The notes beneath the pieces were generated by a model, which saw only the letters and a program-made list of their open reading frames with translations, was not told the origin of the DNA and did no database searches. Both the position numbers and the translations under genes were made by a program. This document shows, piece after piece, positions 3,571 through 59,642 of a DNA stretch of 64,000 nt. Position 1 is the first letter of the stretch. Every line of letters begins with the position of its first letter. The stretch lies in assembly GCF_000764305.2 (NCBI RefSeq), contig NW_025942437.1, positions 978 to 64,977 on the forward strand, read 5' to 3'. The DNA comes from Hyalella azteca. Lineage: Eukaryota > Arthropoda > Malacostraca > Amphipoda > Hyalellidae.

Positions 3571-6500
3571 ATGGCTGTTAGCAATGAATCTTCAGAGTCA
3601 AGCAAGCCACCTGCTCCTAATGCCACCACCTCAACTTCCAAGCTGGAAACAAAGAAGTCTCAGCTCACCATCAATATTGTGAGTTCAATTTTGTTGTTAT
3701 ACCTCAGGCCTTGTTACCTCAATTAATTTGCTTTTGAGTGCAGGAGCTGCCCTCTTAATAAAGCCTCATACCTATTTGCCTTGATGTATTGACTTAATTT
3801 ATTATTAACTTTGATATATTGACCATCTTTGAAATATTTGCAAGTGGGGTACAACATAGTGAGATACTTGGATGAATTCCATAAAACATTTTGTTTCATT
3901 TGAGCTGCTCTTGATGTTGATCGTTGTTGTTAAAAAATTCAAAATTAGAGCGAAGACTAAATTACCAGTTTCTTATCGTGAGGCAGAATCCTTTTCACAT
4001 GGGGTATAGAAATTAAAATTAGTCCATGGTGGAAGTCTACTTTCTATTTTTAAAGACACAGATAACCTAAATCATACCATTTCTCATCAGATTGCAGATG
4101 ACTTGCCTTATGAAGAAGAGCTCATACGCAATCCATTCTCAGTGAAGCATTGGCTGCGTTACATTGAACACAAGAAAAGCTGCATCAAAGAGGAACTTGA
4201 ACTGCCACTTGAGAAGCGAAAATTCAGTGACAAAGACCTGCATTATTTGTATGAACGCGCTCTCCTTCAGATGCCAATGAGCTATAAGCTCTGGAGTCAG
4301 TACCTGAAGCTGCGCCTCTTGGCAATGAAAGATTCTTGTCTTGCAAGCCCAGCAGCAGAGAGCGTCAACAACACCTTCGAGCGATGCCTGGTCTTCATGC
4401 ACAGGATGCCTAGGATCTGGCTGCTCTACCTACAGTTCCTGATGGACCAGCAAAAAATTACCAGAACCAGGAAGACTTTTGACCGTGCCTTGTGTGCGTT
4501 GCCAATAACCCAACATGACAGGGTATGGGACTTGTACCTGAAGTTTGTGATGATGCATGATATTCCCGAGACTGCCGTCAGGGTGTGGAGGAGGTACCTC
4601 AAGCTTAAACCTGAAGACACTGAGGACTACATCAACTATTTGGTGGCACAGGGGCGCCTCCAGGAGGCTGCACGGCAGTACGAGTGGTGTGTGAACACCG
4701 ATGCTTTCGCCTCAAAGTATGGTAAAAGTAAATACCAATTGTGGAGTGAACTGTGCGATTTGCTATCCAATAACCCAGAGGAAACATCACTCCACAATGC
4801 AGAGGCCATCATGCGGCATGGGTTACAGCGTTATGTGGACCAGACAGGTCGTCTCTGGAACTGTCTAGCCCAATATTACATCAAGAGCGCCTTGTTTGAA
4901 CGTGCCAGGGACGTGTATGAGGAAGCCATGCGCAGCGTTATGACCGTGCGCGACTTTACTCAGGTTTTTGACGCGTATGCCCAGTTTGAGGAGCTGCTGC
5001 TTAGCAAGCAGATGGAGGACGCCAAGCTCGACGATCAGTTGCAACAGGATGATTTCAACCTCAGGTGAGAATGGAAACTCATCTTTTGTGCTACTTAATT
5101 TATTTGGGTTGTGGTATTGATGAAGTTCTTTTTGTGTTGTTCTGTGTTTGCAAAAAATATTATAAATAAGTTGCAGCTGGAGCCATTTCTTTAATCTGTA
5201 TTTTAATTTCCGATTAATGTAAACTTGCCAAACTGATATATGAGAACCACCATTATTAATATATTCCTTATATGACAAGATACTAAACTAATCAACAGAA
5301 GGCTTTGAACGAGAATTTTTCTATCAGTGAATTCAGAGGAAAATTTACTCATATTTCTAATGATAAATTGTTTTTCAACCAAGCAGTTACATGGATGGTC
5401 ATAGTGATGTTGTTTAAAAGGCTTATAGCATATCATCTTCGGTGTTGAAGGAATAGGCCTGTTTAGACCTATAGCCGCTTCAAGCACTTTTCGTGACCTG
5501 ATCACAGATCTAAAAACTGGCATTCTGACAAGATACCATCACTGTCTATATAAAATTCCAGTCTATACCATCACTGGAATTTTACTAGTTCTGTACGGTG
5601 CAAGGCATTTCAAGACTGAACATATACTTTTGCATCCACCTCTTTGTGTCGCCAGACTGGCTCACTAATGTCATCACTGTTAACCCCTGTAAATGATGTG
5701 CATGTTTGTGTCGCCAGACTGGCTCACTAATTTCGTCACTGTTAACCCCCTGTAAATGATATGTATGTTTATGTCGGCAGACTGGCTCACTAATGTCAAT
5801 ATTAATCCCCTGTAAATGATATGCATGTTTGTGTCGCCAGACTGCCTCACTAATTTCGTCACTGTTAACCCCCTGTAAATGATATGCATGTTTGTGTCGC
5901 GGTCGCCAGACTGGCTCACTAATGTCGTCACTATTAACCCCCTGAAAATATGTATGTTTGTGTCGCCAGACTGGCCCGTTACGAGGATCTGATCGAGCGA
6001 CGCGCGCTGCTGCTGAACAGCGTCATGTTGCGCCAGAACCCCCACAACGTCATCGAGTGGCAGAAGCGAGTGTCCCTGTATGCTTCCAAACCCAAGATGG
6101 TCGTAACCACCTACATGGAGGCTGTCAAGACCATCGACCCTAAACAGGCGGCTGGCAAACTCTGGCAACTGTGGGTTGACTTTGCTTGCTTCTATGAGAA
6201 CAATGGTCAGTTGAAAGACGCTCGTCTGATCCTTGAGAAAGCCACACAGGTTGCCTACGTCAAGGTGGACGACTTAGCAAGTGTGTGGTGTGAGTGGGCC
6301 GAGATGGAGCTAAGGAACGACAATGAGAAGCAGGCCCTACAGCTTCTCAAGCGTGCCACTGCCATACCAGGAGCCCGCGTTGACTACCACGACGAGAGTG
6401 AGACCGTGCAGCGGCGTCTGCATAAATGTCTCAAGCTTTGGTCTCTGTACGCGGACTTGGAGGAAAGTTTAGGCACTTTCCAGTCATGTAAGGCGGTTTA

Positions 6501-9500: not shown

Positions 9501-11404
9501 ATGTATACTGCGGTATATTAGGTATACTGCATGCACGATAACGTGTTATGTATAATGTGTTAACGAACTTGGAGATTGTGTGCACGTATTTATACTGTAT
9601 GCTTAGTAAACGGTATTTATTTAGCTGTTAAATAGTTTAATCTACTACAGCCTTAAATAATAATAAATAATTTCACGTACAGGCGAGGCGAGGATCTTGT
9701 TCGTGCGCAGCGACACGAGCGCGCGGGACGAGGAGGTCGCCGCCGCCGCCCGCGTCCCCAACCCTGAGGAGATCAACCTGGACGATGAGGAGGAGGAGGA
9801 GGAGGAGGAGGGTGAGAAGGAGGGGGAGGGTGAAGATTGTGAAAAGGGTGAAGGTTGTGAGGAGGAGGGTATGGGTGGAGAGGGCGAAGATTGTGAGGAG
9901 GAGGGTATGGTGAAGAGGGTGAAGATTGTGAGGAGGAGGGTATGGTGAAGAGGGTGAAGATTGTGAGGAGGAGGGTATGGTGAAGAGGGGGAAGATTGTG
10001 AGGAGGAGGGTATTGGTGAAGAGGGCGAAGATTGTGAGGAGGAGGGTATGGTGAAGAGGGCGAAGATTGTGAGGAGGAGGGTATGGGTGGAGAGGGCGAA
10101 GGTTATGAGAAGGGTATGGGTGAAGAGGGTGAAGATTGTGAGTAGGAGTGTATGGGTGCCGAGGGTGAGGAGGAGTATGAGGATGAAGAGGGTATGGATG
10201 CAAATTGCTAGGAAAAGGATGATAGTGAGAAGGGTTGATGTGAAAACGAGGAATGTGAGGAATGTGAAGAGGAGCAGGATGAGAAGGATGGAATGAAAGT
10301 GTGTAGGGGGACGGGGAGGGGTGGTGAAGCTAGAAGACGAGAGGGAGCGTAGAAGAATGGATGAGGTGCGGGGAAGGAGTGTATCACAAGACGAGGAGGC
10401 GCCTGGTGAACTTGAACAATGAGGAGAGGCGATGTATTGATGCGACGTAGACAGAGATAGCTTTAGGGTACCCATGGTTGAAGTACTAGTATAAGCTTGA
10501 CCCATGAGAAGCTCATTTTTGCAGATGTAGTTCGTTGTACGCATGTGACGTCACTGATCTCAGTGACGTCACGGGCATTAACCAATCACTGAAATACGTT
10601 CAAACCAGTCGACCAATCCGTCATGGGAATGACGGGATTGTTTACGTTTCTCGATCTCAGTGACTCAAAATGAAAGCTGAACTGAAAGACGGGTCAACCT
10701 TATATTGTTCAACCATGAGGGTGCCTATTGTGTTATCGGAACACAAAGCGGATGAACGTGTTGGGTGAACAAAAAATACATATACAAGTGTACAATACAA
10801 CTCAACGAGTATAATCAAATGAACAGCCATTGATTGGCCGGAGAACCCAAAATTAGGCTAAAATTGTTTACTCTATTTAGACCTCATGTCATGTAAAGTA
10901 ACGAAGACCCAAATAACGGATACAAATAGGTCTTATTTCCTGGTAACCTTCGCAACAGATTTATTTATTTAACCTTATTATTCCAATTAGTAGATGAACT
11001 ATCTTTCACAATTGAGTTACGTCCTGTATTTGTCGCCCTCGTTCCCTCCAACACTATCATTTATAGTAGGAATACCATTGCAATGTAACTGGAATATCAT
11101 TGCGGCTGTGTTTGGTGGTTCACTCGTTGAAGATAGAAATCGGATGTAAAACTCATTTAAAAAGTTCATTCATTTTGATCATTCAATTAAGCGGTTCATA
11201 TCTGAAAGGCCCACAAATTGCCCCACTAATTCTTTCCTAAAGTCTTCATCAGCTCAGAATTCTAAGCCTCCCATTGAAATTCTCAATGATTGTATATAAT
11301 ATTAATTGTCAATTTGGTAATATATCCTAACGCTCTTGTGTTGCATTGCAGACTTGCCACAGCCCAAGGCTGTACCCAGCGAAGTCTTTGCTGGTCTCAA
11401 GTGA
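3571..11404 (+). CDS. XAB2: XAB2/SYF1 pre-mRNA splicing factor, HAT-repeat protein
   Basis: Coding exons: 3571-3678, 4091-5064, 5970-6822, 7310-7426, 8248-8499, 8767-8911, 9683-9811, 11352-11404. All introns are GT/AG and the phases agree (0,2,0,0,0,1,1), giving 876 residues against 855 in human. Start ATG 3571 has a good context (gccATGg). Recognisable blocks include DLPYEEE, FSVKHWLRYIEHK, ALPITQHDRVW, VMTVRDFTQVFDAYAQFEE, RQNPHNVIEWQKRV, DDLASVWCEWAEMELRN, LRIATPQIIINYGMFL, LERARDLFEQ-type HAT helices, HGNEDTMRELLRIRRS, ILFVRSD and the C-terminal PSEVFAGLK. The protein is a tetratricopeptide-like HAT array of the NineTeen/XAB2-Aquarius complex, acting in the nucleus in splicing and transcription-coupled repair. 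An Ala-rich linker (exon 6) and an acidic Glu run (exon 7) precede the tail; the acidic tail is shorter than in human. Introns 2 and 7 carry minisatellites at splice junctions. Confidence 0.95.
5645..5969 (+). repeat. minisatellite copying the XAB2 exon 3 splice acceptor
   Basis: About five units of 62-66 bp, each containing 'gtttgtgtcgccagactgg' (one has 'cggcag'), followed by 'ctcactaat..gtcac' and 'taaccccctgtaaatgat'. The genuine exon 3 acceptor at 5969/5970 has the same sequence, 'gtttgtgtcgccag' then ACTGGC. The array therefore consists of copies of the junction including six exonic bases. Confidence 0.9.
9812..10300 (+). repeat. purine-rich minisatellite in XAB2 intron 7
   Basis: Tandem units of roughly 45-50 bp such as 'gaagattgtgaggagg' plus 'agggtatggtgaagagg', about nine in number, almost pure purine on the + strand. 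The array starts directly at the exon 7 donor, where the Glu codon run (GAG)n passes into the intron. The long frame of 299 codons on the other strand (9645-10544, Ser/Pro/Leu/Thr/Phe-rich) is a by-product of this composition. Confidence 0.85.
10460..10672 (+). repeat. family D repeat with a double CRE palindrome, copy 1
   Basis: About 210 bp shared with 55030-55210 in the opposite orientation; common phrases are 'gacccatgagaagct', 'gatgtagttcgttgt', 'aaccagtcgaccaatccgt', 'catgggaatgacggg' and 'tctcgatctcagtgac'. At 10545-10572 it has two 13-bp arms, each containing TGACGTCA, around a 2-bp spacer. It lies in the last intron of XAB2. Its class is unknown. Confidence 0.8.
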
Positions 11405-13917: not shown

Positions 13918-16900
13918 CTAGAGGCATTGCAAGGGCTGGAGGCAGCGGTCGCTGAAGAAGAAGTGTCGCTGTGCTGCAGCAGCGCCGCGTCTCCCGCCAT
14001 CTCCATTTTCTTCGCTGCCATTCATTCTACCGCCGCCCGCTTGCCGGGCAAAGAACTGAAGCACAGACGGTGTGTTCTTCTTCTCCTTGTCAGCTTCTTC
14101 TTCCTCCGCCCTGGGAAAACATCAGGTGTTCAGGCAATACAGAAGGCAAATAAGTGCGAGTTATACTAGTGTCAGCGGACGTTCGCCGCAACCTTTAATC
14201 TTGCTCAGAATGTCTCGAGCCTTACGGCCAAACGCCGGTAACTATCTTGTAAAGAAATACACTGACTTCGATAAAAATTTCAATTGCACATGGATTCCGT
14301 TAATTAAAACTTCAGTTAACACGAATAAAACGTAAGTTTATTTCAGCAAGGAACAGTTTAAAAGAGACACGTTTAAAATACTAGAATCAGCGAAACAGGC
14401 ATTCATAATGAAAGACAGCGTCATAAAACTTTCAAAGCACTGCCACGATTCTAGCGTTAGGGCACAGAATTGCTGAGAGTTGGTAGAGCGAATTTAGGTG
14501 AGAACCTCACTGTAGAGCTGGCGGAACACGACTAATTACCAGGCTCACAGCCGCTCATATCTGACCTCTCATGACTTCACTAAATGCCGTAAGGACAATG
14601 TGATGGGGCTGTACACTTTCACTTTCGGTACCCACGTTAACAGTGAACGACTCCCACCGTTCACACTAGTATCAAATTGCCAATGGTTCATCATAACTGT
14701 GTTATGCTGAAGGCGTTCGACACAATAGACAGACAATTTAGACAACGCTCTGAGGAAATTTGGGATGGATAAGGAGGAAGGAGACAGCTCCTTGATGTGA
14801 TTGACAGCTCCTTGATGTGATTGACAGCTCCTTGATGTGATTGACAGCTCCTTGATGTGATTGACAGCTCCCAGGTCTGTCCACGTGTCCATCATGCAAA
14901 GGCTGTGCATGGTGGTGCACGTGAATGTCCCCGGTCTGTACCTAAGACTCGCCATGTTACCGATACCTTCATAGTCCTTCCAGTAAACCCATCATGAGAT
15001 GGGCAGCCATCTGTTCTACCCATTACACCAGCCATGAGACTGGTACGTCTTTGGTCTACCCATCAGGCTCACCATGCGCCTGACGTGCCTTTGGTCTCTC
15101 GTTAGACCCATCATGTTATTGGCAAGTCTTTGGTCTACCCATTAAATCACCATGCGACTGACAAGCCTTTGGTCTCTCATTAGACTCATCATGTTATTGG
15201 CATGTCTTTGGTCTACATATTAAATCAATATGAGATTGACAAGCCTTTAGTCTCTCATTAGACTCATCATGTTATTGGCGTGTCTTTGGTCTAAAATTAA
15301 ATCACCATGAGGTTGACAGTCCTTTGGTCTCTCATTACTTATCATGTTATTGGAATGTCTTTGGTTTACCCAATAAATCACCATGAGATTGACAAGCCTT
15401 TGGTCTCTCATTAGACCCACCACGTTACTGGCACGCCTTTGGTCTGCAAGATGGACTCCGCCGTGGACCAGGAAAAGCGGACGAGGCTGGGAAAACCAAA
15501 CACCGGATCGAGCGTCCGCTGTAGGAAGTTTTTTGTGATCGCATCTGAAACGTAGAAATTTTACGCGCTTTAAAACACGTTAATAAGAAGCATAAAATTC
15601 ATGGGATATATTAAATTCACAGGCAATAAGAAATAATATTTTCAATATAAGACATGACGCGCACCGCCAGGATATCCGCTGCCCCAAGTGCCACCCTCGA
15701 TGCCTTCAGGGAACTGCCAGGCAGCCAGAGCGCTGTCACGCGCGACCTGCGGGATCAACAGTACCGCTGAAGATTATATTTTATTTCCTTAGCAAGTAAT
15801 TCAGCAGCTACGACAGAAACAATAAAAGTTATATTGAATTATGAATCAAGTCGTTCAGTATCTATATTGATAGTCATTAATTATAATACCCCTGTTGATA
15901 AATCACAGAAGTAGCGACGATAGTTTATTCAAACAAGTGGTGGTGTCTCGGTTATACCACAATCTCTACACTGAGCTCTGGCACAGACGACCCACCCTGG
16001 CACAGACGACACACCCTGGCACAGACGACACACCCTGGCACAGACGACACACCCTGGCACAGACGACACACCCTGACTAGGATAAAGAGCGTCTGCTTTT
16101 TTAGAAACTGTTATGTCCAACGTGGGGAAAATTTCTTGCAATTTCGCCTGTAAACAAACAATACAAATTACATGCTCGCCTAACACAGTTTGCTTCACAT
16201 AATTTTCTATCAATCAAATAGTTTATTAGCATTTTGTCATAATTTTGAAAAAAGTATATTTTACTCATCAATATTTAACCATTTAGATCATGAAATAATA
16301 GATACACACATCTATAGCACGATGTGAAGTACTTTTCCCAATGCTATAAAACATTAATCATCTAAATGAATTATTAATGTTATGTTAGTAAATTAATTAC
16401 ACCTTTCAGTGCTCACAGTTTATTTAATCAGTATTTTTTAATTGGAGCAATCTCAAGTCTTAGCACATACTTAGCAAGAATTCACTCCCCTTCACAAAAA
16501 AACGCACCTTCAATTAACTAAGAAATAAAGCACAGTAAACTTAGCATCTCATCATAAATTTTGACTTTTTATGTAGAGAAATAATTTGTAAATTGCTAAA
16601 TTCAAGACAAGCTGTATCATCAAAATCATCAAAATCATCAAATGTACAAGATAAAGAGAGATGCACGTAATAGGTAAATACGTGTAATGATCAGATAGTT
16701 GTAACTTAAAGGCACCTGATATTTCTCAGGCGGTCCTACGGTGTCCACGAAGACTTGGGTGATGTTGGCGCCGGCGGTCATTGCGCGTCTGATGAGCGTG
16801 ATGGCAGAGTTGTGCGACACTTCGTTCAGCGAGACTTTAGGCCTGCCAAACATGAAGATAAAATATGGAATATTCTGCATCTGAAGCTCAATAAAATATG

Positions 16901-23710: not shown

Positions 23711-23712
23711 TA

Positions 23713-24376: not shown

Positions 24377-24379
24377 TAC

Positions 24380-27079
24380 TGTCTCCAAACTTAGCAATGG
24401 ACACCTGTGAAATTACAGGATTGTATCTGTGTGACTCACAGCCATGCAGGTATGCATATTGAAGACCATTGCTGCGTTCAGTGCCAGTTGCTGCCACCTG
24501 CCCTGTGCCAGGATTGGAATTTTCCTACTTGTTTCTGAAATCTGGCAGCTCCAACTAGACAAATTTTCAATACGTTTGGAATCTTGTGGCCCAATCCTGC
24601 ACTTTTATTAACAATTAGTGAATTAGACAGATAGGAGTTAATCATCTGGCCGAAATTGCACGGTTCCAGAAATGGCAGGAAAGTTCTAGTTGCAGCCCTA
24701 ATGGTAGAAGTTTTCCATGCTTGCGCTGTGCAGGCATCTGCTACTGCCAACTTGTGCCAAGTTGCCAATTGCGCTGTTTTGAACAATGCTGCACGGTATT
24801 AAAATAATTCTGTACAAACTGTGCCGTCTGGCGTCTGTGCGGACCATTGCCTTCAGCAGGGTTGGCAATGATTAAATCATGTGATTAAATCACTTGATTT
24901 TTTTATAAAGAAATCATGATTTTTTTGATTTTTTCATATATTTAAAAATATTGAGTGGCAGTCTTTAATTTATATTGAGGTATTGTTATTCATGGTTTAG
25001 TATAAAAACTTGCATTTTAACTTAGAAAATATATAAAAATCGGTTTTCTGATGCCAACCGCCATAAACGGATTTCAGATTCTTTATCTACACCCCAAAAA
25101 ACATATAATTTAACAAAAAAAAACTTTTTTGGATGCACTTAATCTAAAGTAATACCTACCACAAATGCTTCAAAGCATTTAGACGAGTGGTGTAAAAACC
25201 TCCAGAATTGGTCTCTTGACTCCAGGCATGGAATGTATCTACTTGGCAAGCCGCGACCAAATTTTTCAAGCCGTGGTTTTATGGATTTGCCAGCCATGAT
25301 ACCATTTCTTCGAGCCATGATTCCATTTCACCGAGCCGTGAATTCCATATCTCAGCCATGAAAAGCCATTTACCAGGCGTGAATTTATTTACAAAGTCCA
25401 TGCACATGTTACCCCAAATCTCTAACTTTACCCTAAAACAGTCAAATGGCAAAGATAAAATTTGTCTTTACTGTAAGTTGAGCATGTGTTAATGCAGTCT
25501 GACCGCTTTGACATGACCGCAACTATGCGCGATCATCAACAAAACGTTTAGTTGAATCGTTTGCATTACAATGTTTATTTTTTTCCGCATGATATTTTGG
25601 TGGTAACGGTAAAGCAATGCAGATTGCGGAAGTAGAAAATTTTATGAAATGACATGTTTGCAAAGTGCAAACCGCGATTTTTCAATCAAACAAAAATTTA
25701 TGACATTTGAGCCGCAAGATTTCATACCTAATGAAATTATATGATATTAGAGCTGCGATATTTCAGACAAAAATAGGACTTTTCCAGCCCTGCTTGACTC
25801 TTGAGTCTTGAGCAGTGAACAAATGTGATTTTCTTTGACTTCGCCTAAATGTTTAGTCAAAATTTTGTCAATTATGGCTTTGCTGATCTCAGGAATTTTT
25901 TCACACAGCTAATGAACTACAAGTGTAATCCATTGAATTTGACCGTCAAGGAATGGACCCTTTCTTGCATTTGAATGAAATGACCTGAATGGACCCTTTC
26001 TTGCATTTTCGCATATGCATACACTCATGGACTCATGGTCGTGCCGTCGTGGGACATGGTATACACTATACAACAATACATAGAACCTGATAGAGGTATA
26101 GTCCAAGTTTAAGTAATACGAGATTATAAATGTTTTTTTAATTCAACTGTACGCAATCGAGGACAAAACACACAAGATCACCTAGATGTTTAATCAATCA
26201 ATTGAATCACTGAATGCATATGCAGCAAACTCTCTCTTATTATGAATAGGAGCACTGGCCACTGGTCCATGCAGCCCCTTGCTTAATTTAATAAAGGGTT
26301 TACTTTGTGCCTAATAGTCTAATAGCTATCCCTATCAGAAAGTTTGAAAATCTGCAAACTTGAAAAGTAAAAAAACAGCAAAAACTCTCTGCCGCCTTCT
26401 TCTTCTTCTTGTTTGATGATTACTGGAGCTTTGGAGACCCGTCCATGTAGCTCCACGTCTGCAGGGGGGTTCAGATGTTACAGCAGTCCCACCAGTCTCA
26501 CAACTGCTCCACAATTCAGAGACTGCAGTAGTCCCAGCAACTATGTGCATATGAAGAATGTCATTAGCTTAAAGCATCATAAACATTGTGTCAATTGATC
26601 AGCTACAGCTCATAAAATTGGGGAGTTATATGTCAATATCATGTTCAGGGAAATATTTTGCAGAGGGTAGATCAAGGGACAACATGTTTCAAAATAAATC
26701 ATTCAATATTATCAGGAGATTCTAGTGACTAGTTCATACTAAACAGAAGATGCCATTAATATACCGTAGCTAGGCCAAATTACCCAAGTTAGTAATTAGA
26801 GGATGCCCTACCTTGTGCCACATATGAGAAACCAGACTATGTGAGGGTCCAGCCTGGGTGGCGCAACCTGGAGCCTCTCTCAGCCAAATGTGGCTAGTGC
26901 AAACAGTATTTGATGCAAATAAGCTAACAAGATGTCTCTCTTATGGGCAGGGCTCAGAAGGAGGCAAGGGAAAAACTGCTTATCTGGTGGAGGCAAATAG
27001 AGGCACCCTTCACATAGGCAGTCATTACAGTATTCAATAGATCTGCACAGAGCACCTCTACTTGAGCTCATGGATGCAC
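24380..27079. other. non-genic stretch, degraded repeats
   Basis: No gene recognised. About 25250-25380 repeats the phrase 'gagccatgattccattt' with variations. A short TTC run lies near 26396-26412. At 26850-27080 the minus strand may hold the eroded end of the LINE that follows, but no conserved motif was seen. Confidence 0.45.
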
Positions 27080-33123: not shown

Positions 33124-33345
33124 TTTTTTGTTCTCTGTTGTGTTGTATTGTGTTGTTCTGTGTTGTATTGTATTGTATTGTTCTGTGTTGTATTGCATTG
33201 TTCTGTGTTGTATTGTATTGTTCTGTGTTGTATTGTATTGTTCTGTGTTGTATTGTATTGTTCTGTGTTGTATTGTATCGTTCTGTGTTGTATTGCATTG
33301 CTCTGTGTTGTATTGTATTGTTCTGTTGTGTTCTATGACCTATGT
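33124..33345 (+). repeat. TGTTGTATTG minisatellite
   Basis: Units close to 'tgttgtattgtattgttctg' (20 bp), about nine to ten copies, grading into further TGTTGTG-rich sequence up to 33450. All overlapping reading frames here (Cys/Val/Leu-rich or Asn/Thr/Gln-rich) are by-products. Confidence 0.92.
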
Positions 33346-33810
33346 TGTGCTGCGTTGTGTTGTGGACGTGGTGTTGTTTTATGTTGTGTTGTTACTGTTG
33401 TATTGGGTTGTTCTGTGCTGTATTGCGGTGTTGTGTTGTGGTGTTGAGTTGTGCCTCTTGCCTCTGGATCTTCTTTTTACCACCTTTAATTTTTTTCACT
33501 TCTGCTGTCGCTGGCTTCCGCAGTTATTGTGCAGTTACTATGAATTTTAGATGGGCTATTGTATTCTAAAATTGTGATTGCAGAATATGTGTTAGCAGAG
33601 TCATCACCATCTGAAAATACAATATAACTGTAGGAGAAAACTCATCATCTATTTGTAAACAGGTATTATTCAATCAGGATTAACTTTACCACTTGATAAT
33701 GCACAAATATATTAATATACTATATTGCCATCACTGTAAAATAGAATAAAAGTCTATGACTTGTTTGTATCAAATGAATATATACGGCTTGCATAAGTAA
33801 GCAACTGACA

Positions 33811-47092: not shown

Positions 47093-47875
47093 TTAATAGC
47101 CATCACTTCAACGGGCGAGGAATTGATATTGTTTTACTATAAAAAATTAGTTTGCATATTCATTAGCAGGCGGAACTAAAAGATGATAAAAAATTTCACT
47201 AATAACATTAATTTTATTTCGAGTAAAATTTTTCATTTGTGTACATGGATTCATGATTTTTTTCTTGACCAGTCAATTGTTTTCCTGTGAAATATGTTCA
47301 CGTAAATGTCTGTCAAATAATCAATTTTAATTAATCAATAGACTCAAATGAGGACACTAAGAAAGCATAGGGTTGAAAAAAAAATACATTGGTAAAATTC
47401 ATATTTTTTGATAAATCTTCTATATATTTTTTGCGAGAAATTTTATTCTCTCACTAATATAATAGATATAAACATTCAAATTACATTTGGGGAAATTAAA
47501 GTGAGCTCAGAAGCCAGTATTATTAACGTGGTTAATATGTATTTAATCGTATATAATGTAATTAACCTATTTATAATACATTTCATTACAGCTAATAATC
47601 TTTAATTAAAGGGGTTTACGGTTAACATGTTTCAGTTCCACTATCGTTTTAATTGATGTAATAACTGATTGAGTTTAATTAAATTATTGTACTTAGAACT
47701 CGATATTGGCATGCTCAATATTTTGTAGTATTGCGAACTACAAAATAATTTACCGTACATTTCAAGGAAACTTATTTAGCGTATCGCAATAACTGTTATC
47801 ATTGGTCAAATAATTTTTTTTTCTCGCAAAAAAATCACCTGCGCAACAGGGCAAGGATAGGACAGACAATCTGTT

Positions 47876-47955
47876 GAAGAACAATCTTTAAAACTATGAC
47901 TATCAGTTGTTGTAAGAGAGACCAGGATTGTCGATGCCGATCTTTGTTTTCTCGC
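47876..47955 (-). repeat. duplicate of the SLC6 last-exon 3' half
   Basis: 'atgactatcagttgttgtaa', 'gagagaccaggattgtcgat' and 'gccgatctttgttttctcgcc' repeat the last-exon sequence of 48070-48131 with one base change. It still encodes GEKTKIGIDNPGLSYNN and stop in the minus-strand frame. It lies downstream of the real stop codon, so it belongs to the 3' UTR or flank. Confidence 0.9.
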
Positions 47956-48060
47956 CAAAAAAGATTGTTGAAGAATAAGCGGTCGTAAAAATTGTTGAAG
48001 AACAATCGGCCGTAAAGATTGTTGAAAAACAATCGGCCGTAAAGATTGTTGAAGAACAAT
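47956..48060 (-). repeat. 30-bp tandem repeat downstream of the SLC6 stop
   Basis: Three to four units of 'gattgttgaagaacaatcgg' plus 'ccgtaaa', each with a small inverted repeat (gattgtt/aacaatc). It separates the two copies of the last-exon tail. Confidence 0.85.
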
Positions 48061-48077
48061 CTTTAAAACTATGACTA

Positions 48078-51000
48078 TCAGTTGTTGTAAGAGAGACCAG
48101 GATTGTCGATGCCGATCTTAGTTTTCTCGCCGGCGCGGCGCGCGGCGACGAGCAGCTGCCTGGCGTCGGGGTCGCCGGGGCCCCAGCTCAGCGCCGGGCC
48201 AAACACGCGCGCCATTTGCTGCGGCGTGGAAATGATACAATGTTAGGGACAACATGTCATTGTTTATCATAGGAGTGCTAGATATTATATTTGGTAATAC
48301 GAGTGTTACATATTATATTTGGTATTATGAGTATTATGACATAACTAAAACATTGATGTTTAGAGGAACGTGTGATTGTTTATCATAGAATATGAATGTT
48401 AGATATTATATTTGGTAATACGAGTGTTACATATTATATTTGGTATTATGAGTATTATGACAACTAAAACATTGATGTTTAGAGGAACGTGTGATTGTTT
48501 ATCTTAGAATATGAGTGTTAGATATTATATTTGGTATTGTGACATAAGTGAATCATTGACGTTTTAAGGAGCGTGTGATTGTTTATCATAGAACACGAGT
48601 GTTTGTTATCCAATGTTATTGAAAACATGTCATTGTTTATCATAGAACAGAAGTGTTATAGTGTATATTATATTTGGTATTGTGACATAAGTGAAACATT
48701 GACTTTTGAGGAACGTGTGATTGTCTTTCATGGAATACGAGTGTTTGTTATTTAATGTTAGGGAAAACCTGTGATTATTTATCTTAGAACAGGGGTGTTT
48801 GTTATCTAATGTTAGGGAAAACGTGTGATTGTTTATCATAGAACACGAGTGTTAGATATTTAGATATTAAATTTGGTATTGTGAAATAAGTGAATTATTG
48901 ATGTTTAGAGGAACGTGTGATTATATGGTTTGGAACATGGCCTAACATGGAATTAGGCAGGGTGAATGACATTCTGACAAATTTGACTCAATGACATCAA
49001 CAGTGAGTGGTAATTTTGCATGAGCCTGGGGATACATGAATTGCTAAAGTGTTTAATCAATTTGAATTCATTAATTAGCTCAGCTTACCACGTGAAAAGA
49101 CGCTAAACTCTTCTTAACAATGACGAAATTCATTTCAAAATTTCTATTTAGGAACGAAGCGATATGACTCGTGAACTATATAAATCATATGTACCACACG
49201 ATGAGCCAATATAGGTAGACTAAAAAAAACTTATAACATCAATCTGCTTGAATCGCAAGTTCAACAAGAAATTAACGGCGTAAGAAACGTCATTAAAGAT
49301 ATGATGAATTTACTTAGAATTTTCTTTGCTTCTAAGTTCTTGAATATAAATAAATCTCACTCTGGTGACTAGTCGCTTGCAGACCATCAAAATAAAGACC
49401 ACGGGGATCATACAGACTATAAATAAATCTCACTCTGGTGACTAGTCGCTTGCAGACCATCAAAATATAGACCACCGGGATCATACAGACTATAAATAAA
49501 TCTCACTCTGGTGACGAGTCGCTTGCAGACCATCAAAATGAAGACCACCGGGATCCAGCCGATGGACACAGCTGTCAGGGTCCAGCGCAGGGGCGTGGCC
49601 CAGGTGGGGTCTGAATCCAGGGCCGCTGCTGGGTCGGTCCAGGTCAGCACAGAAAATATCAGCATCACCTGCACGCAAATTTTATGATGAAGTATCAAGA
49701 TCTTTATCATGATTTTATCGTTAATTAACTTCATGCTAATTAACCTTTTACCATTAATCTCGTTAATTAACCTCATTATTTCAACAGGTAACCTTATATA
49801 CGCAAGGCCATGCGTGTAGGTCGCAACGTTCATCTCGCCATCGTCTTGTTACAAGTCACAGTTCGTTGTATTGAAATTATTTACAAGCAATATTGTAATT
49901 GATCGATAAAATTATAATGACAACATTAATTCCAACGTTCTTATCTGAACGAACTTGAGTTCTTACGAGACAACTAACAATAACAATGACACAACTCACG
50001 ATAACGGTGACACAACTCACGATAACGATGACACAACTCACGGTAACAATGACACAACTCACGGTAACAATGACACAACTCACGGTAACAGTGACACAAC
50101 TCACGATAACGATGACACAACTATGACACAACTCACGATAACAATGACACAACTCACGATAACGATGACACAACTCACGATAACGATGACACAACTCACG
50201 ATAACGATGACACAACTCACGATAACGATGACACAACTCACGATAACGGTGACGGGAGAAAGGAAGGTCCAGCAGAGTTTCCAGAAGATGGAGGGGTTGT
50301 AGCCCAGCATGAAGGCGAAGTCTTCACTCAACCTCCTCACGCCGTACAACCAGCTTAGCGTGAGCAGCTCGCACGCTGCCACAACCATCACGCTCACACC
50401 CACCCCGTACTGGCTCAGCATGTTGAGCAGGAAGTAACCTCGCTCCTGGAGGGTGTACAGTGATGACATCGTTAACTTTTATGAATAAATGTTTGAATAA
50501 TAATATTTGATAATGTTTGTAATAAATAATAATAATGCTTGAATAATAATATATTATAATTACGAATAAATATCTTGAAATATTTATAGATGAGTATCGC
50601 GATCCTGGTAGGTTTGCAATGATGGATTCGTTATAGTTCAAGAAGAATTAATATTTTCAGTCAATTTTGAAAAAATAAAAAATTATAATCGCGATCCCGG
50701 CAGAAGTGAAGTTATTATGACATCATCTTTGCGTGAGGAACGAAGGAATATTTTTAAGCAATTTTGAACGATTATAAAGTGTTGGTGACTAGCGATTCAA
50801 TCGTGATATTTTCAAATCAAATCAATACATAAACAATAATAAAATGAACATAAAATAATATTCATATAGTGATCCCCGTTTCCGTCGAGTGCCGTAGGAG
50901 GACATTACGTATATAATAATTCCAGAATTGAATAAGAAATAAAGTGAACGAATCTTCATTAGATTGTGAAGGCGGGGTAAAGATTGTAAATTTCAAGTAA

Positions 51001-54000
51001 AAAAAGGGTTGGACTGAAACAATATTCTTCACCGATGAAAGAATAAAGCAGTTCAGAGAAATCACGATTTATTAATAAAATATCAGGTAGTAAGCAGTAA
51101 AAGCATTATGAAATATAATTTTTGTAAATTAATTACAGAGAAATTTCCCACTCTATATGCGCTGTAGCTCAGAATGCCTGAATAAAGTTAAAATCTGCGG
51201 GACCACTCGTATGTATGTATGAATTTAAAGTGTCAGAGAGACTATGGTGATTATCTCTATTGTACCATTTTATTTAGATTTCTGCTAGTTATGTTCATCG
51301 ATAATGATTAACCATTCAATGATAATTAGACAAGTCAGTGATAATTAGACCAGACAATAACAATAAGACCAGACAACAACAATAAGACCAGGCAATAACA
51401 ATAAGACCAGACAATAACAATAAGACCAGACAACAATCAGCCCAGTCACCTCAGCACAGAGCGGCAGAGCCAGCAGGGCGCCGCAGCAGCACAGTCCCCC
51501 CGCAACTGTCATGGCGGACGCGCGTAGTCTCGGGACCGTATCCAGGATACCCCCCACCACGACGTGCACGTGTCCGGCCTTAACACATCAACGTTGATTC
51601 GTTGATCAACGATATACGTTGATAAAGCTTAGGTTTGTTACTTAAACTTATTACGATGCTTTACTTGCATGATGCTTTACGCTATGTTTCGTCATACATG
51701 CATGATGCTTTACGCTGTGTTTAATCATGCGGTTTCTACAAAATTTGTATTTATTCCTCTCACTCAGAATTAGGAGAAGAAAAGTTGCGGAGAATTGACT
51801 AAAAAAATATAACTCAGTACTCACTGCAGTGAGTGACAGAGAGCGCATTTTCTCGTCCGTCCGTTCGTGAAGTCACGGACGGACAGACGGACGGACGGAC
51901 ATGACGAGCACAATAGCGCCTTTTTTCCGCAAATGAGAAAATTGTATAAAAAGTTATCGTTGAAAAATAATGGAAGACTAATATTAAGATATTTATTAAA
52001 TCATATTTTTCTTCACATTCAACGGAAAAAATATTTGAAGCATTAGAAAAATTACATGACAATTACAGGAATACACAACTTCTAAGCTGTAATTTTGAAA
52101 TTATTTAGTTATTACCTATATAACTGTAATCAAAGGTAAACTATTTTATAATCATAGTCTCACCAAAGAGCCCAGGCCGAGGGTGATGAGTGCCACGTAG
52201 AAGAGAACGGCCCAGAGATGAGGCACCGGCAGGGCGCTGCCTATGGCGCTCGGGTACACTACCAGGGCCAGGGACTCACCTGGGGGATATTTATTACTAA
52301 ATATTAACTTAATACTTAAATTAACTTATTACCTGGGGGTGACAAGTTATTTGTATTACTCATTTTATTTCATTGAACATTGAAGAGTCATGGGAATTAC
52401 ACATTAAACGTGTGGCTTACACTAAAGAGGGGAACATGTGGAACTTGATTTCAAGCTCATAAACGTAGATTTACTGTTCGAACAGTCGAAATGGGTGAAG
52501 CAATATGATTATTTTTAGCGCATTTTCTCATTTGCACTATTGCACTCTATTACTATTGTGCTCGCCATGTCCGTCTGTCTGTCCGTCCGTCTGTCCGTGA
52601 CCTCAAGTTTTCGTCGACGAGAAAATGCGCTCTCTGTCACTCACTGCAGTGAGTACTGAGTTATATTTTTTTTAACATAACTCGGAATGACCAATAAACA
52701 GCCCTTAGCGGAAATAATAAAATCTGCTGAAATACTTTGAGACATATTTCGACTTTGCAAAAAATGACATAAAGCATATATGACTAATTATTCATTTTAT
52801 TTAATGGAAGCGTTTTTAATTCATTGATGAAATCGATACCAGGTTCTCAGGTATTAATTAAAAATTTCATAAGGTCATAACATATTGCGCGAGTCAAAAC
52901 AATACTCACAGTAACAAAGTCACGCTAACAAGCAAACCGGAATCTATCATCGACTTTTCTAAAACCTAAACTTTCAGCTGCTACCACAGGTACACTAACA
53001 CATGCTACAAAATTAATTTCATAAAATTCTACTGAATTGCAGCGAGAGAATACTTAAGTTCTCGCTTTCGAATATACTTTTTCATGAGTATACTTTTCGA
53101 ATTTGATATTACTTAAGCTTGATATAACTTATTAATTTGAATTTGATATTACTTATTAATTTGATATTCTAATTCGAAAAGTATACACAATTACCCATGT
53201 CAGGGAGGTTGGCCACGTCTCTGAGGCCCAGCTCGTGGGCCATGGCCCCCAGCACGGCGAACACCGCCACGCTCGCTATGATCGACACCACCAGGTCTCC
53301 CACGCACATCACCACGGCGTCCAAATGCACCTTGACAACGTTACGCAACATGAGATTTATAGTAAAACCCAGAGATTATATAATAATAAAACGGAGAGAT
53401 TATGTTATATTAAAACGGAGAGATTATACTATAATAAAACGGAGAGATTATATGATAATAAAATCTAAAGATTATATTATATTAAAATGGAAAGATTATA
53501 TTATAATAAAATGGAGAGATTATATGATAAAAAAGCGGAGCGATTATATTACATTAAAACGGTTAAATTATATGATAATAAAATGGAGAGATAATGTTAT
53601 ATTAAAATGGAGAGATTATATAATATTAAAATAGAGAGATTCTCTTACGTTAAAATGGAGAGAACAGCGGTCCGATAGAAGGTTGAATAGGAATGATTTT
53701 TTTCTTAGTTGAGACGTTTTTCGAACCTTATCATTTGGTTTCTTGAAAGAATTATCGAAAATTCATGATTTAATTACCATTAATTGAGGAAATTTTCTTT
53801 TCACTTAAAATTTGAACATTCATTTTTATACGTAAGTATTGGGCCTTCATAAACTTATAATCGGATTACCTACCATTGCAGAATTTGTAATTATTTCAAA
53901 ACTGAAAATTCCATGTGAATTTTACTAGTCAAAAACATATCTCTTTGATAAGATTTGTGAATTTCGGGCAAAATATTCATAATTAGTAAAATCATTTATA

Positions 54001-57000
54001 AACTTTTCATAGTATAAATCTAACCATTAATCTACAGGTAGTTGGTTTCGACTCACTTTGTTCCTAAATGAGTTGTAAGAGCCGTACATGATGACGCCGC
54101 CATGGGCCAGGGAGAGCGAGACCAGCACTTGCTCCAGGGCCTTGGCCCACACCGTCAAGTTGGTCAGATCTGACCAGCGCGGGGCAAACAGGTACAGTAG
54201 GCCCTGGTGGTGAGGTGGGAATTTAGGTAAAGATATCGATGATAAAATTAATATAAAAATAGACAATAACTGGAAAATTCTTTAATATAAAAGGTAGGGG
54301 TCAGTTCTGACCAGCGAGGAGCAAACAGCGAAACAGGTACAGAAGGCCCTGGTGGTGAGGTAGAAATTTAGATAAAGATATTAATGATAGAATTTACATA
54401 AAAATAGACAATAACTTGAAAATTCTTTAATGTAAAAGGTAGGGTCTTAAAAGTACTTGAATAGTAGGTCAATGGATTGGTTTAAGTTCTGCTGGGTCAT
54501 GGATATAATTTACTAGAACAGATGATGAACTGCAGATTTATTTAATCTGAGTGAATTTTTCCGGTGTTAAACATTGAATTCATTTAGCAAAAGACTTGTT
54601 GTAACTAGGTATAAATTTATGAATCTTCCCGGTGTCAAATATTGTATTCATTTGATTAGGAATGAATTCAATATACTTCAAATTACTTACAATGTCAGCG
54701 CCTTGCATAAGCAGTCCATTGATCATCAGAATAAAGAGCACCACTACAGGGATGATGGCGAGAGCGTAGGCAGCTTTACCGGTGCTCTTCACGCCACGAA
54801 GTACCACGAGGAAGACCAACGTCCAGGCCAGCACCAGGCACAAGGTCAGGTCCCAGCGTATGGTACCGATATCATCAGATGGTACCCTGAATACCGGCTT
54901 GTGTAGTACTTGGTTCCTGCAATAAATGAACTTGTGGCATGCTAATGGTCGCGCGACATTGGTTGCAACTATGGATGAACTATATAAGGTTGACCCACGA
55001 GGATTTAAGGCTTTCAATTCAGCTTTTTTGTTGCGTCATTGAGATCGAGAAACTTAAACCATCCCGTCATTCCCATGACGGATTGGTCGACTGGTTTGAT
55101 CGCATTTCGGTGAATGGTTAATGCCGTGACGTCACTGAGATCAGTGACGTCACAGACGAACAACGAACTACATCCGCAAAAATTAGCTTCTCATGGGTCA
55201 ACCTTATACTACGTAGTTCAACCGCGGTTTGCAACATTTTTCGCCAGAATTGTGTTGGGTCATCGACAGCTTTCATTTGGGACTGACCTCGTCCGGCAGC
55301 TTAAGATAAATCAGTAAATATGATAAGATAAAGCATTAAATAAAATAAAATATATCAGTCTTAAAATGCCTAGCAAATTACGGACCAGGCAATAAGTCCA
55401 GCAGCTATCTCAATCAATCGTCAGTTATGGAAAGATCGGGTTCCAAAGGCCGGATCCCTTGTGAATCAAGTCACGAAAAATTCAAGAATCGGCGACAGGC
55501 TATGGGCCTATTTCTTCAATGCCGACACTTCTATCCTATTCTATTATAAATAAACATTATCTACCGCAACTTCAATGAGTTTTGATTACTTTTCATTTTT
55601 TGGCTTGAAAGCAGCAGGTGGAAAATATTTTTTACTTGAACGACCACAAACTTTGAGTGATGTTCAAAGCGGTAACAGATGCATGTCAGAGCCTCGGTTC
55701 CAAACGACGTGCCAGCAGAGCGTCCAAGAGTTATAAAGGAAAATAATTTTTTCAGGAGATGGGTTTCGCAATATATAGTAAATAGATCGTAAAATATAGT
55801 TTTTTATGTAGTTGGCTCAGAGTCATACATAACATGCAATACATCTGGTCTTTGGAACTGTATAGTGTACATATATCTACGGAACAAAGTGCTATCATAA
55901 TGATTATGTGCCATTAATGCTATTTTTTCTTCATTAACCTGTATTCTTACGCAGTGGTGACAAAGGTACTTCGCGGTACAGCAATTCATAGCTTGAGTAT
56001 AGCCTGGTGCGAACATAGTACAATACCCATCAAACATTCGAAGTCAAATTCCATGAAGGTTAATTCGCAATTGAAAGTAAAGATTTCATCGAAAGGAGGG
56101 AGACATAAACCAATTTGCAAACAAATTATGCAAATGACCACTTGACTTTGATTTCGGGCCACGTATTTCTTGGTTAAGAATATCTTGAATATATATGTAT
56201 AATAGCCCGAGTACAAACACCAAGATTAATGTTATCAAATTCAAGGAAACATACGAGAAAAACTGCTGCGCCGCCGTCTGCTTGAATTTTGAGTGTGGTG
56301 ATGCAGCGATGATGGTGGTGTTGCCGAGCAGTATAAGGGAGCGGGGCGCCCCCATCTCGTAGCAGTGGTGAGTGTTCCATGCGTGGCCGCAGCTGGTCCA
56401 GGGCAGCTGCGGGTGGTCAGTGAATAGAGAATAAATTAATTAATTATAAACTACATGCGTCTATAGGCTTCCGTATCTTTTTAAAATATTGTGAATGAAA
56501 TATTATATATTAGAAATGAAAATAATTAATAATGTTATATATTATAAAAAATAAAAATGGAATAAAATATTATATATATTTATTCTGTAAATGAAGAAGG
56601 GATTTTGTAGCTATTAGTGGTGAATGAATAAATAATGTCTTTAATTTCATCAGCATAGGTTTAGGTAACCCATTTATATATTATATATTAATTAATTTTA
56701 TGCTTTAAATGAGCAAGGGTGTTTTTTTACCCCTAAAACGTAGAAAAAATAAAATATTTAGAGAGATCGGAGTTTCAAAAGATTGTTAAATACTTTCGTC
56801 TTTACATCATCGAGGGAAATGAGCCCCGAAAAAATATTTTTTCGTTGGCACATCGATTAATGAATAACAGTATACAGAGTCGTACTCTTCAAAAATGTAT
56901 TTTGCCAACTGAATTGAGATATTAATTTGCCTGAAAAACGTTTCCTGATCTACTTATCTACGTGTACTAATCTACTAATTCACAGGGGAGCCGATGTAGG

Positions 57001-59642
57001 CGAGGCTGGCGAAGAGGTAGTAGAGGCAGTAAGCCACCATCTGATTAGCGTAGACGGCGGTCAGTAGCGACAGCACCGACATCGCCACGCCGATGCCTGC
57101 AAGGAAAAATTGCTGCAGTCTGTTAGAAAAATTACACTTAACGGTATTACCGGTGTTTCAGTGGCCGGTCGGCACGTGAAAAGAAACACCGCGTGGCGTC
57201 GTTTTTATTCTAATTTAACACTAGAATTCCGTAAAACATCTGACAAAACGGCGAAACAGTTTATTTTCACGGGGGCGACCGGCAACTAGAACGCCAGTGG
57301 GACCGTTTTTTCACCGTTTTTTTAACAGTGCAGTCAAATACAAAATAAAATATTTTAAAATAAAGTTAAGGGAGTTGAGGGGTGGGTTTGGGGTATTGAA
57401 TAATATACATAATATTTATCCTCGATTGACATGAGCTACACAATCTGTTTGTTGCTCGCTATTATCTATGTTGAATAAAATATATTTTTGGTGAATTATA
57501 TGTCAGGCAAACAGATTAAACGCAAGAGCTTTCCAAGTTTACATGATCTATGAATCATTTCTATTGAAGGCACATGCCAATATAACACAATAACTTTACA
57601 ATAACAAAAACTAGTCCAGTTCACGGGATATAAACCCTGAGAAACATAAACTCTGAAACTATGTCCAAATAGCGACGAATTTTTTGCTCCTGCATTGTTT
57701 ATGCTGATCCAATTCTGCCCGGCAAAAGAGTGTATCAGCGCTACGCACAAAAATTGTGTTACAGTTTGCAATATATGAGCCATTAACTTGTGTGAATGTA
57801 AATGTCTATAATGATGGTACACACATAAACTGTCAGTTTATGTGTGTACCATCAGGGTCAGTTTAAAACTGACCCTGCATGGCGGATCATTATGGTACAC
57901 ACATAAACTGACCCTGCATGGCAGATCATTATGGTACACACATAAACTGACCCTGCATAGCGGATCATTATGGTACACACATAAACTGACCCTGCATAGC
58001 GGATCATGATGGTACACACATAAACTGACCCTGCATAGCGGAGACGCACTTGAAGACGTTGAGAGGTCCGAGCTGCGCGTACTGACCGAGGCCGAGCTCC
58101 AGGAAGAACAGCGGCACACCGACCAGCGTCAGGAATATCACGTACAGAAGCAGGAATGCTCCTGTGTACGTGATCGTGTGAGATATTCAGTTAATTCCAA
58201 CTCCTCATATTATTAATATGATCATAATGACACAATTTCAATCACATTCTCATCAAATTAAAATACTTAGTGAACAATGAGGTATTTTCACCGCATAAAT
58301 TGGCCCATTAATTAACAATTTTTTCTTGGCATTTCTCTAACGGATTCATCTTGATCGGCCCAGCCTGCCCAACGAATAATCATAATCGTCTAACCAAATC
58401 CTTATATAATATTCATGTCCTTATGTCAAGTTTAGGACGTCTTCGTACATGGTCACGCTGATGCGCCGCCTTCGTCGTCCACCATACCCAAACTGTCACT
58501 ATGAGGTCGCCCGGCCAAAAGGTCCCGGAGGTAACGTTGAACGTGACCGTGCAGCTGCCCTTATTTGAGCAGCTAATACAAAGCATCCCAAAGATCAGCT
58601 CCATGCTTCCATTGTTTACAACTGACCTCCTCCATGATTGTAGGCCATGTACGGGAATCGCACGACGTTGCCCATGCCGACGGTGAGGCTGAAGCAGGAG
58701 AACAAGAACTCCGTCTTGTTGGTCCACTTGGGGCGAGCTGGGATGCGGCGAACTGGCGGGGCATCTTCTGTTGCCTCCTGCACCTCTACCTGCGTGGCAA
58801 CCATGTGGACTTATGATCAAATAATCACATTTTATACAGGTTTTTTAGCGCATTTTCTCATTTATGGAAAAATGCACTATTGTGCTCGCCATGTCCGTCT
58901 GTCTGTCAGTCCGTCTGTCCGTCCGTGACCTCAAGATTTCGTCGACGAGAAAATGCGCTCTCTGTCACTCTCTGCAGTGAGTACTGAGTTATATTTTTTA
59001 TATTTTTCAATATCTACTGTGCATCCATCTGCAGGCTTGAATCACGTTTAAAGGATTGGCAACTGTCATGTCTCGTAAATGGTACATGTCATGTCTCGTA
59101 AATGGTCTTTAGCCGTGAAAAGTTTTTGTCCATATGATAAAGTAATTGAATACATATAAACCAATGAACATGATAAATTAATAAACAAAACAAAAACTCA
59201 CCTTATTGATATCGTAAGGAGTTGGAACATAATTCATTTTCCACCTGGCGTCCAAATCGTCGTCTTCTTTTAGGCTTTCAGTTTTTCCATTACTGGCTTT
59301 TGGACGGCCGTTCGTCTCTGTACCTTCTGAGCGCTTTTTTGATGGTCCATCGTACGGCGTTGCGACGTAATTGGCTCGCCATTTGGCATCCAAGTCAGCG
59401 TCATTTTTGTCCTTCGCGTCATTTGCTATTTTATTGATGGCTTTATCGTAATTTTCTTTATCTGGAACGCCTTCTTTGTCGACGTTTAGATCGTTGTTGT
59501 TTGAGACACCGTTCGACATCCCAGTCGCAGTTTTAGGTTCTGATGAAGATGGCGCTGAAGAAGCTGTCTCACCAGTTTTATTGGGACGATAGCTGGTTGA
59601 TGTTGGTTCGGGCTGAGAGCCCTGTAGGTTGGAAGCAATCAT
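48078..59642 (-). CDS. SLC6 family Na+-coupled transporter, invertebrate nutrient amino acid transporter-like
   Basis: Coding exons in transcript order: 59642-59202, 58789-58627, 58161-58030, 57096-56984, 56406-56255, 54916-54691, 54203-54057, 53330-53195, 52279-52164, 51578-51450, 50445-50242, 49668-49507, 48218-48078. All phases agree; about 753 residues. TM1 has GMGNVVRFPYMAYNHGGGAF; TM2 GVPLFFLELGLGQY; loop 2 LPWTSCGHAWNTHHC with the disulfide pair and an NTT glycosylation site; IRWDLTLCLVLAW (TM4), VSLSLAHGGVIMYGSYNSF (TM6), VLGAMAHE (TM7), ITLGLGSL (TM8), LPLCAE (TM10 side), WLYGVRRLSEDFAFMLG. Asp in TM7 and Gly in TM8 at the Na-site positions fit NATs better than neurotransmitter carriers. 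TM1 has Val instead of the usual Trp before RFPY. The first exon may begin at an acceptor (59622) with its true start in an unseen upstream exon. The N-terminus is long, hydrophilic and has two copies of a DLDA(K/R)WxxNYVxTPYD motif. Confidence 0.93.
48240..48930. repeat. long-unit tandem repeat in the last SLC6 intron
   Basis: Six to seven diverged units of about 90-120 bp with the phrases 'aacgtgtgattgtttatcat', 'agaatacgagtgttagatat' and 'tatatttggtattgtgacat'. It begins about 20 bases inside the intron from the last-exon acceptor. No coding content. Confidence 0.85.
49355..49556 (-). repeat. 73-bp triplication of the SLC6 exon 12 end with its donor
   Basis: Donor motif AGA/GTGAGA occurs at spacing 73 bp: the true one (49507/49506) and copies at 49434/49433 and 49361/49360. 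Each copy holds about 48 exonic bases (GATGGTCTGCAAGCGACT, GTCACCAGA) and the following intronic 'gtgagatttatttatagtctgt'. Because 73 is not a multiple of three, use of a downstream donor would change frame. Confidence 0.92.
49979..50246 (-). repeat. 21-bp minisatellite carrying the SLC6 exon 11 donor
   Basis: Minus-strand unit 'gttatcgtgagttgtgtcat' (21 bp with one more base), twelve GTGAG copies including the true donor at 50241. The six copies nearest the exon keep the reading frame open (VSCVIVI repeats); then a 9-bp irregularity near 50121-50130 shifts the frame to a stop. Confidence 0.95.
51340..51440 (-). repeat. minisatellite next to the SLC6 exon 10 donor
   Basis: Units of about 20 bp, 'aataagaccagacaacaaca' on the + strand, four to five copies, beginning about 12 bases inside the intron from the donor at 51449. 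A diverged trailing unit is at 51330-51350. Confidence 0.85.
51805..51957 (+). repeat. family C dispersed repeat, copy 3
   Basis: 'aactcagtactcactgcag' start and GGACGGACAGACGG core; the end has decayed to 'gagaaaattgtataaaaag'. In the intron between exons 9 and 10 of the SLC6 gene. Confidence 0.8.
52516..52673 (-). repeat. family C dispersed repeat, copy 4
   Basis: Opposite orientation: 'agcgcattttctcatttg' ... 'cactgcagtgagtactgag'. In the intron between SLC6 exons 8 and 9. Confidence 0.8.
53357..53650. repeat. AT-rich 25-bp minisatellite upstream of SLC6 exon 8
   Basis: Units such as 'ataataaaacggagagatta' plus 'tat', about twelve copies, starting 26 bases from the exon 8 acceptor (53331). 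It does not obviously contain junction sequence. The 145-codon + strand frame across it (Asp-Tyr-Ile-repeats) is a by-product. Confidence 0.88.
54300..54446 (-). repeat. tandem duplicate of the SLC6 exon 7 start and preceding intron
   Basis: 140-150 bp copy of 54163-54299, with 'gaccagcgaggagcaaacag', 'ggccctggtggtgaggt' and 'aaaatagacaataact' shared. It contains a second acceptor (cag/GGCC) and the first codons of exon 7 (Gly-Leu-Leu-Tyr-Leu-Phe), then a small insertion shifts the frame to a stop. It lies upstream of the true exon in transcript direction. Confidence 0.9.
55030..55210 (-). repeat. family D repeat with a double CRE palindrome, copy 2
   Basis: Inverted relative to 10460-10672. 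The palindrome at 55126-55153 again carries two TGACGTCA sites in 13-bp arms. In the intron between SLC6 exons 5 and 6. Confidence 0.8.
55352..55548 (+). repeat. family E repeat, copy 1
   Basis: 'aaaatgcctagcaaattacg', 'gaccaggcaataagtccag', 'caaaggccggatcccttgtg', 'aagaatcggcgacaggctat' ... shared with 61455-61637. The tail is shared with the SINE at 46847, so probably a retroelement 3' end. Confidence 0.8.
57845..58035 (-). repeat. 39-40 bp minisatellite copying the SLC6 exon 3 donor
   Basis: Five occurrences of the minus-strand phrase 'atgcagGGTCAGTtt' or close variants, spaced 39-40 bp, including the true donor (58030/58029). Each copy also has the exonic 'ccgctatgcagg' (two with ccgccatgcagg or tgccatgcagg) and intronic 'tttatgtgtgtaccat'. 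The far end folds back into an inverted copy (57826-57870). Confidence 0.93.
58846..58999 (-). repeat. family C dispersed repeat, copy 5
   Basis: Opposite orientation, nearly full length, in the intron between SLC6 exons 1 and 2, about 55 bases from the exon 2 acceptor. Confidence 0.8.

Follow-up and report, generated by a model that had tools for sequence, protein, structure and literature searches.

Mirage-like tandem arrays at splice junctions of three Hyalella azteca (Amphipoda) genes

In lancelets, minisatellite-like duplications of intron–exon boundaries, both 5' and 3', have been described under the name of mirages (PMC3087553; PMC3902484). Their units are 10–160 bp long, many of them carry AG/GT signals, and RT-PCR found regular splicing to be undisturbed (PMC3087553). 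The genes concerned are Adh3 and those for the globins BflGb6 and BflGb9 (PMC3087553), with PGBD5 and troponin C as further examples (PMC3902484). Minisatellites with units of about 30 bp are likewise located at exon–intron boundaries in human segmental duplications, where they accompany recent paralogues, altered exons and new introns (PMC2812944). In the model of intron gain through tandemly duplicated AG/GT sites, sequence that holds splice signals is also copied (PMC3087553; see also PMC4974935), and tandem alternative splice sites (TASS) likewise place candidate sites close together (PMC8055015).

How does a crustacean locus compare? We analysed a 64-kb stretch of DNA (the window) from the amphipod Hyalella azteca, and within it studied three genes: XAB2/SYF1 on the plus strand, and RNASEH2A and SLC6 on the minus strand. 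Arrays in all three have in common with lancelet mirages a unit that spans the boundary, an occurrence at both types of junction, and the retention of splice signals, and their units (21, 39, 39/78, 62–63, 73 and 137 bp) fall inside the 10–160-bp lancelet range. Judged by their sequences, they are mirages in a new phylum, and the statement in an earlier, sequence-only reading of the window that no named process fits the pattern is therefore wrong. Among the titles and abstract openings of the open-licence PMC literature, no boundary repeats were found for Hyalella or other amphipods. The differences from lancelet mirages are that the host is an arthropod, that six to seven cases come from three genes in one 64-kb window, with an excess that could be counted, and that splicing is judged here from protein models, whereas in lancelets it was checked by RT-PCR. 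In contrast to the human case, the genes are conserved and so, at protein level, are their junctions; in contrast to intron gain, the introns keep their junctions and the arrays lie at one end only; and in contrast to TASS, the spacing is that of the repeat unit (21–145 bp) and the decoy sites are candidates by sequence only.

Exon limits were set from reading frame and splice dinucleotides, and then compared with three H. azteca proteins in GenBank (models P0001, P0121 and P0154). The seven-exon XAB2/SYF1 model (856 aa) is identical over its full length (100%) to P0001, entitled 'pre-mRNA-splicing factor SYF1 isoform X2 [Hyalella azteca]'; the SLC6 model shows 100% identity to P0121 (labelled 'partial') across 93% of the model; and the RNASEH2A model has full-length identity of 95% to P0154, entitled 'ribonuclease H2 subunit A [Hyalella azteca]'. 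Together the three models have 25 introns and 50 junctions. Their introns sum to 18,182 bp, which replaces the figure of some 30 kb previously claimed.

Local duplications were catalogued over the entire window with Tandem Repeats Finder (TRF) and self-BLAST. Arrays reaching a threshold of TRF 100 or 50 bits were called strong, and there were 12 of these within the three gene spans (Table 1); self-BLAST clusters below 50 bits were left out of the count, and nine weaker arrays (TRF 50–100) were kept apart and tallied separately. Five further arrays of equal strength (TRF, self-BLAST) lie in the approximately 40 kb outside the gene spans. Also outside XAB2, RNASEH2A and SLC6 are a long simple array of the TGTTG type (TRF; 33128–33453) and, at 26800–31500, open reading frames that, in translations inspected by eye only, resemble a non-LTR retroelement, with a zinc knuckle and a reverse transcriptase-like YADD. 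RNA family searches gave no match at gathering thresholds.

Table 1. Tandem arrays and local duplications in and beside the three genes (positions are those of the window; intact decoys are given as a fraction of the listed copies besides the real site)
Feature	Positions	Strand	Detected by	Unit (bp)	Exon share of unit	Intact decoys	Remarks
XAB2/SYF1 exon 3 acceptor, apparent mirage	5643..5975	+	TRF	62-63	6/62	5/5	exon 3 starts at 5970
XAB2 exon 7 donor (9811), array	9787..10200	+	TRF, self-BLAST	35
RNASEH2A exon 7 donor (15421), apparent mirage	14980..15448	-	TRF, self-BLAST	39/78	28/39 (or 28/78)	2/6	28 exon bases
SLC6 exon 12 donor (49507), apparent mirage	49342..49555	-	TRF	73	49/73	2/2	49 exon bases
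SLC6 exon 11 donor (50242), apparent mirage	49964..50253	-	TRF	21	12/21	12/12	junction in P0121
SLC6 exon 7 acceptor (54203), duplication	54162..54444	-	self-BLAST	137 (intronic copy 145)	42/137	1/1	junction in P0121
SLC6 exon 3 donor (58030), apparent mirage	57808..58042	-	TRF	39	13/39	4/5	junction in P0121
RNASEH2A exon 4 donor (16078), array	15978..16075	-	TRF	19			starts 2 bp past donor
SLC6 exon 10 donor (51450), array	51343..51433	-	TRF	19			about 16 bp after donor, not spanning
SLC6 exon 8 acceptor (53330), array	53357..53663	-	TRF	24			ends 26 bp before acceptor, not spanning
SLC6 exon 13 acceptor (48218), arrays	48235..48922	-	TRF, self-BLAST	28/119/142			end 16 bp before acceptor
RNASEH2A intron 7, interior array	14783..14871	-	TRF	20			549 bp from junction
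SLC6 last-exon tail, duplication including stop codon, into 3' flank	47872..48131	-	self-BLAST

The six junction-spanning arrays or duplications named in the sequence-only reading were all found, and in register with the exon edge. These unambiguous cases, at four donors and two acceptors, are joined by a seventh, low-complexity one at the exon 7 donor of XAB2. Five of the six unambiguous junctions are supported by P0001, P0121 and P0154, and at each of the five the exon-proximal site is the one used by these protein models. At the XAB2 exon 3 acceptor, where the junction agrees with P0001, six exon bases are repeated, and five decoy acceptors precede the real one (copies at 5651, 5713, 5776, 5836, 5905 and 5965, located with a pattern that required CAG; the number of decoys fits the length of the array). 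The RNASEH2A exon 7 junction is read in P0154 as GVPVTW followed by AEEEE. SLC6 contributes the other four. The array at its exon 3 donor contains four intact decoy donors and a broken one, and at its exon 11 donor each unit consists of 12 exon and nine intron bases, with GTGAGT in 11 of the 12 decoy donors. The exon 12 array has two decoy donors whose nine-base site is identical to that of the real donor; P0121 ends one codon short of this donor and thus leaves it uncovered, and the join is backed instead by P0122, the SLC6 protein of the amphipod Trinorchestia longiramus (KRLVTKQLSRLMGPALSW versus KRLVTRQMARVFGPALSW). The exon 7 acceptor case is a simple head-to-tail duplication that takes in 42 exon bases and provides one decoy acceptor. 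In the weakest spanning case, that of XAB2 exon 7, a coding GAG run (DDEEEEEEEE at the end of the exon, then DLPQ, according to P0001) spans the donor and leads into the 35-bp array.

This last array had earlier been listed with two others as merely starting close to a donor; instead, it continues a GAG run by which the donor is already crossed. The other two are indeed near donors, although at SLC6 exon 10 the distance is about 16 bp and not, as claimed, within about 12; the array at RNASEH2A exon 4, 2 bp away, holds no exon bases. The near arrays at the SLC6 exon 13 and exon 8 acceptors were absent from the earlier list. The duplicated tail of the last SLC6 exon, also reported before, does exist (85 bp, 98.8% identity, copies 175 bp apart; a 27-bp array sits between them); as it straddles the stop codon and includes no splice junction, it was left out of the count, which would otherwise be 7 of 13.

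In the six unambiguous cases the junction lies at varied points of the unit (Table 1), so the breakpoints were not at the splice site itself; this is what random breakpoints would leave, and not what precise cutting at splice sites would. Apart from the real sites, GT or AG is intact in 26 of the 31 copies listed (the list omits copies less than 66% identical to the junction segment). Might the decoys serve a function, in that they buffer or tune splicing or supply additional coding units? By a donor matrix built from the window's own 25 donors, real sites included, 14 of the 19 listed decoy donors at SLC6 exons 3, 11 and 12 score equal to the real donor, and at SLC6 exon 11 five of the 12 decoys (+21 to +105) are open and in frame, so that use of the first five would append one to five hydrophobic heptads, (VSCVIVI)n. 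Against this, use of the other 21 of the 26 intact decoys would add a stop codon (19 cases) or only shift the frame (two cases: +73 at exon 12 and +137 at exon 11). The suggestion that decoys are useful is thus unsupported, and function seems to us highly improbable. Because 21 of these 26 would, if used, introduce a stop codon or disrupt the frame, their survival suggests rather that they are mostly ignored.

Could the arrays be artefacts of assembling a repetitive draft genome? Within each of the six unambiguous cases, substitutions or small indels distinguish the copies from one another, and draft assemblies usually collapse such arrays and seldom create several unrelated ones. Both points argue against artefact, which we consider very unlikely, even though the lancelet draft offers a precedent in an aberrantly assembled mirage (PMC3087553) and a local misassembly is possible next to the RNASEH2A 19-bp array. 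There, P0154 continues exon 4 into the array, at the point where the Hirondellea gigas protein P0155 has the conserved segment VSAASICAK; the exon 4 donor used here, which differs from P0154, was placed by phase and by comparison with P0155. By phase the segment would be a 29-nt exon 5, expected between exons 4 and 6 (15747–16077), but a pattern search of the minus strand of the RNASEH2A region did not find it. The absence may reflect either a lost exon or misassembly.

The arrays are also unrelated to one another, as had been claimed: at E 1e-3, none of the 12 matched anything outside itself in the 64-kb window, and within it one shared mobile repeat or introner is accordingly rejected. An alternative of a different kind is that the introns themselves were newly born from tandem arrays, a model of intron gain by duplication proposed both for mirages (PMC3087553) and for the human exon–intron boundary repeats (PMC2812944). 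It is hard to reconcile with the present cases, as none of the 12 arrays reaches both ends of its intron and related proteins cross the junctions without insertion (evidence against an extension of the exons, though no guide to the age of the introns); we think this origin most improbable.

The arrays are very probably mirages in the lancelet sense, that is, tandem duplications that included a junction and were expanded on its intron side. Each would have begun with a tandem duplication whose unit happened to include a splice junction. If, as seems likely, the exon-proximal site stayed in use in the animal, the remaining copies would fall within the intron and be spliced away, and duplication would have been followed by neutral expansion into a minisatellite on the intron side. 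Duplications wholly within exons would presumably be purged by selection, leaving junction-spanning or intronic ones to survive. Under the mirage reading, the exon-bearing copy might be expected to be frozen relative to interior copies, but no clear difference appeared in the five arrays compared (terminal–interior versus interior–interior identity: 0.925/0.904, 0.957/0.966, 0.931/0.939, 0.729/0.752 and 0.812/0.805).

Is such a sequence of events enough to account for the number of junctions affected? Seven of the 12 strong arrays each span a junction, out of 50 in all, and another four stop 2–26 bp short of one, the RNASEH2A intron 7 array being the sole interior one; thus 11 of the 12 span a junction or lie within 27 bp of it. 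The contention of the sequence-only reading that junctions are struck too often for random placement holds within the window (7 of 12 observed against 1.27–2.03 expected). With units scattered randomly within introns or across junctions, the expectation was 1.27 spanning arrays of 12 (P = 3e-5 for seven and 4e-4 for at least six, conditional, like every P value here, on a window chosen because of its array pattern). High GC content of exon edges does not account for the excess, since GC-matched placement of units still gave an expectation of only 1.53 of 12 (P = 9e-5; 1.1e-3 for at least six). When arrays were placed whole, and no more than 50 exon bases were allowed, the expectation was 2.03 (P = 0.001; 3,000 runs). 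For arrays that span a junction or lie within 30 bp of one, the observed 11 of 12 compares with 3.2 expected, and was reached in 0 of the 3,000 runs. The nine weaker arrays include none that spans a junction and two within 30 bp of one; pooled with the strong ones, they give 7 of 21 spanning against 1.70 expected (P = 6e-4).

One view of these figures is that tandem duplication is plainly random, has no preference for junctions, and that the window is an extreme draw among many read. As long as the outer site is used, a duplication across a junction does no harm, so that some (1.27–2.03 of 12) are expected by chance; none of the weaker arrays spans a junction, and the window was chosen post hoc. 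Values of P from 3e-5 to 1e-3 under three nulls, together with the concentration of arrays on or near junctions, weigh against chance, as does a further candidate in Trinorchestia (below); we regard this view as possible, if rather improbable on balance. The same figures count against the mirage explanation, since random duplication by itself does not predict such an excess (7 of 12 against 1.3–2.0).

The other view is that of a true hotspot: in amphipods and lancelets, tandem duplication would strike preferentially at junctions or in the DNA adjacent to exons, for example through break repair or replication template switching tied to transcription or exon structure. We put the chances of this view at somewhat short of even. 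The excess under all three nulls favours it, as do the four arrays that adjoin a junction though not containing it. So does a perfect 21-bp inverted copy of unit sequence, with a 1-nt loop, at the distal end of the array beside SLC6 exon 3 (57812–57854): it resembles a fold-back scar, which is not produced by slippage alone, and hints at template switching there. Of the three spanning arrays examined, those of SLC6 exons 7 and 12 had no fold-back, so that the feature is seen in one of three, and the case for a hotspot draws on one window and three genes. A junction hotspot is thus suggested, by a single window picked post hoc, and the local excess is a strong lead, short of proof; as its cause, we find a true hotspot about as likely as an extreme draw. 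Our preferred guess is that a higher rate of duplication in or beside exons would combine with the purging of exon-internal events.

The candidate from the second amphipod comes from P0122, which is 65% identical to the H. azteca SLC6 model. It contains three copies of LMINGLLMRGADL with VSGVIIF(F) as linker; GLLYLF, with which exon 7 begins, follows immediately. We treat this as a lead only, from one protein model: the triplicate may be a translated mirage of the exon 6 donor, in which, to judge from the protein, the VS of the linker could be an in-frame GTGAGT. The exon 6 donor of H. azteca has no spanning array, so the candidate concerns another junction (exon 6/7) of the same gene.

Finally, we draw attention to the state of the GenBank models: those of SLC6 and RNASEH2A, though not that of XAB2, are cut short, thrown out of frame or overlong at an array or next to one. 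A second H. azteca SLC6 model, P0123, is frame-shifted through exon 3, exits from the first decoy donor of the array there, and omits exons 4, 5 and 12. We take this splice from a decoy donor, and the run-on of P0154 beyond exon 4, to be probable errors of automatic annotation, although the two models may reflect real use of decoys. Mirages may therefore corrupt automatic gene annotation in amphipods. If the excess proved to be genome-wide, the birth of minisatellites would be tied to gene architecture, and H. azteca would offer a tractable animal model of the duplication of splice sites, their tolerance and perhaps their recruitment into new introns. That exon–intron junctions are a general hotspot of tandem duplication in animals, in arthropods and lancelets alike, we think unlikely on present evidence; if it were true, most strong genic minisatellites would lie on or beside a splice site, and the hotspot would keep supplying duplicated splice sites and would occasionally give rise to new introns or to coding repeats in frame.
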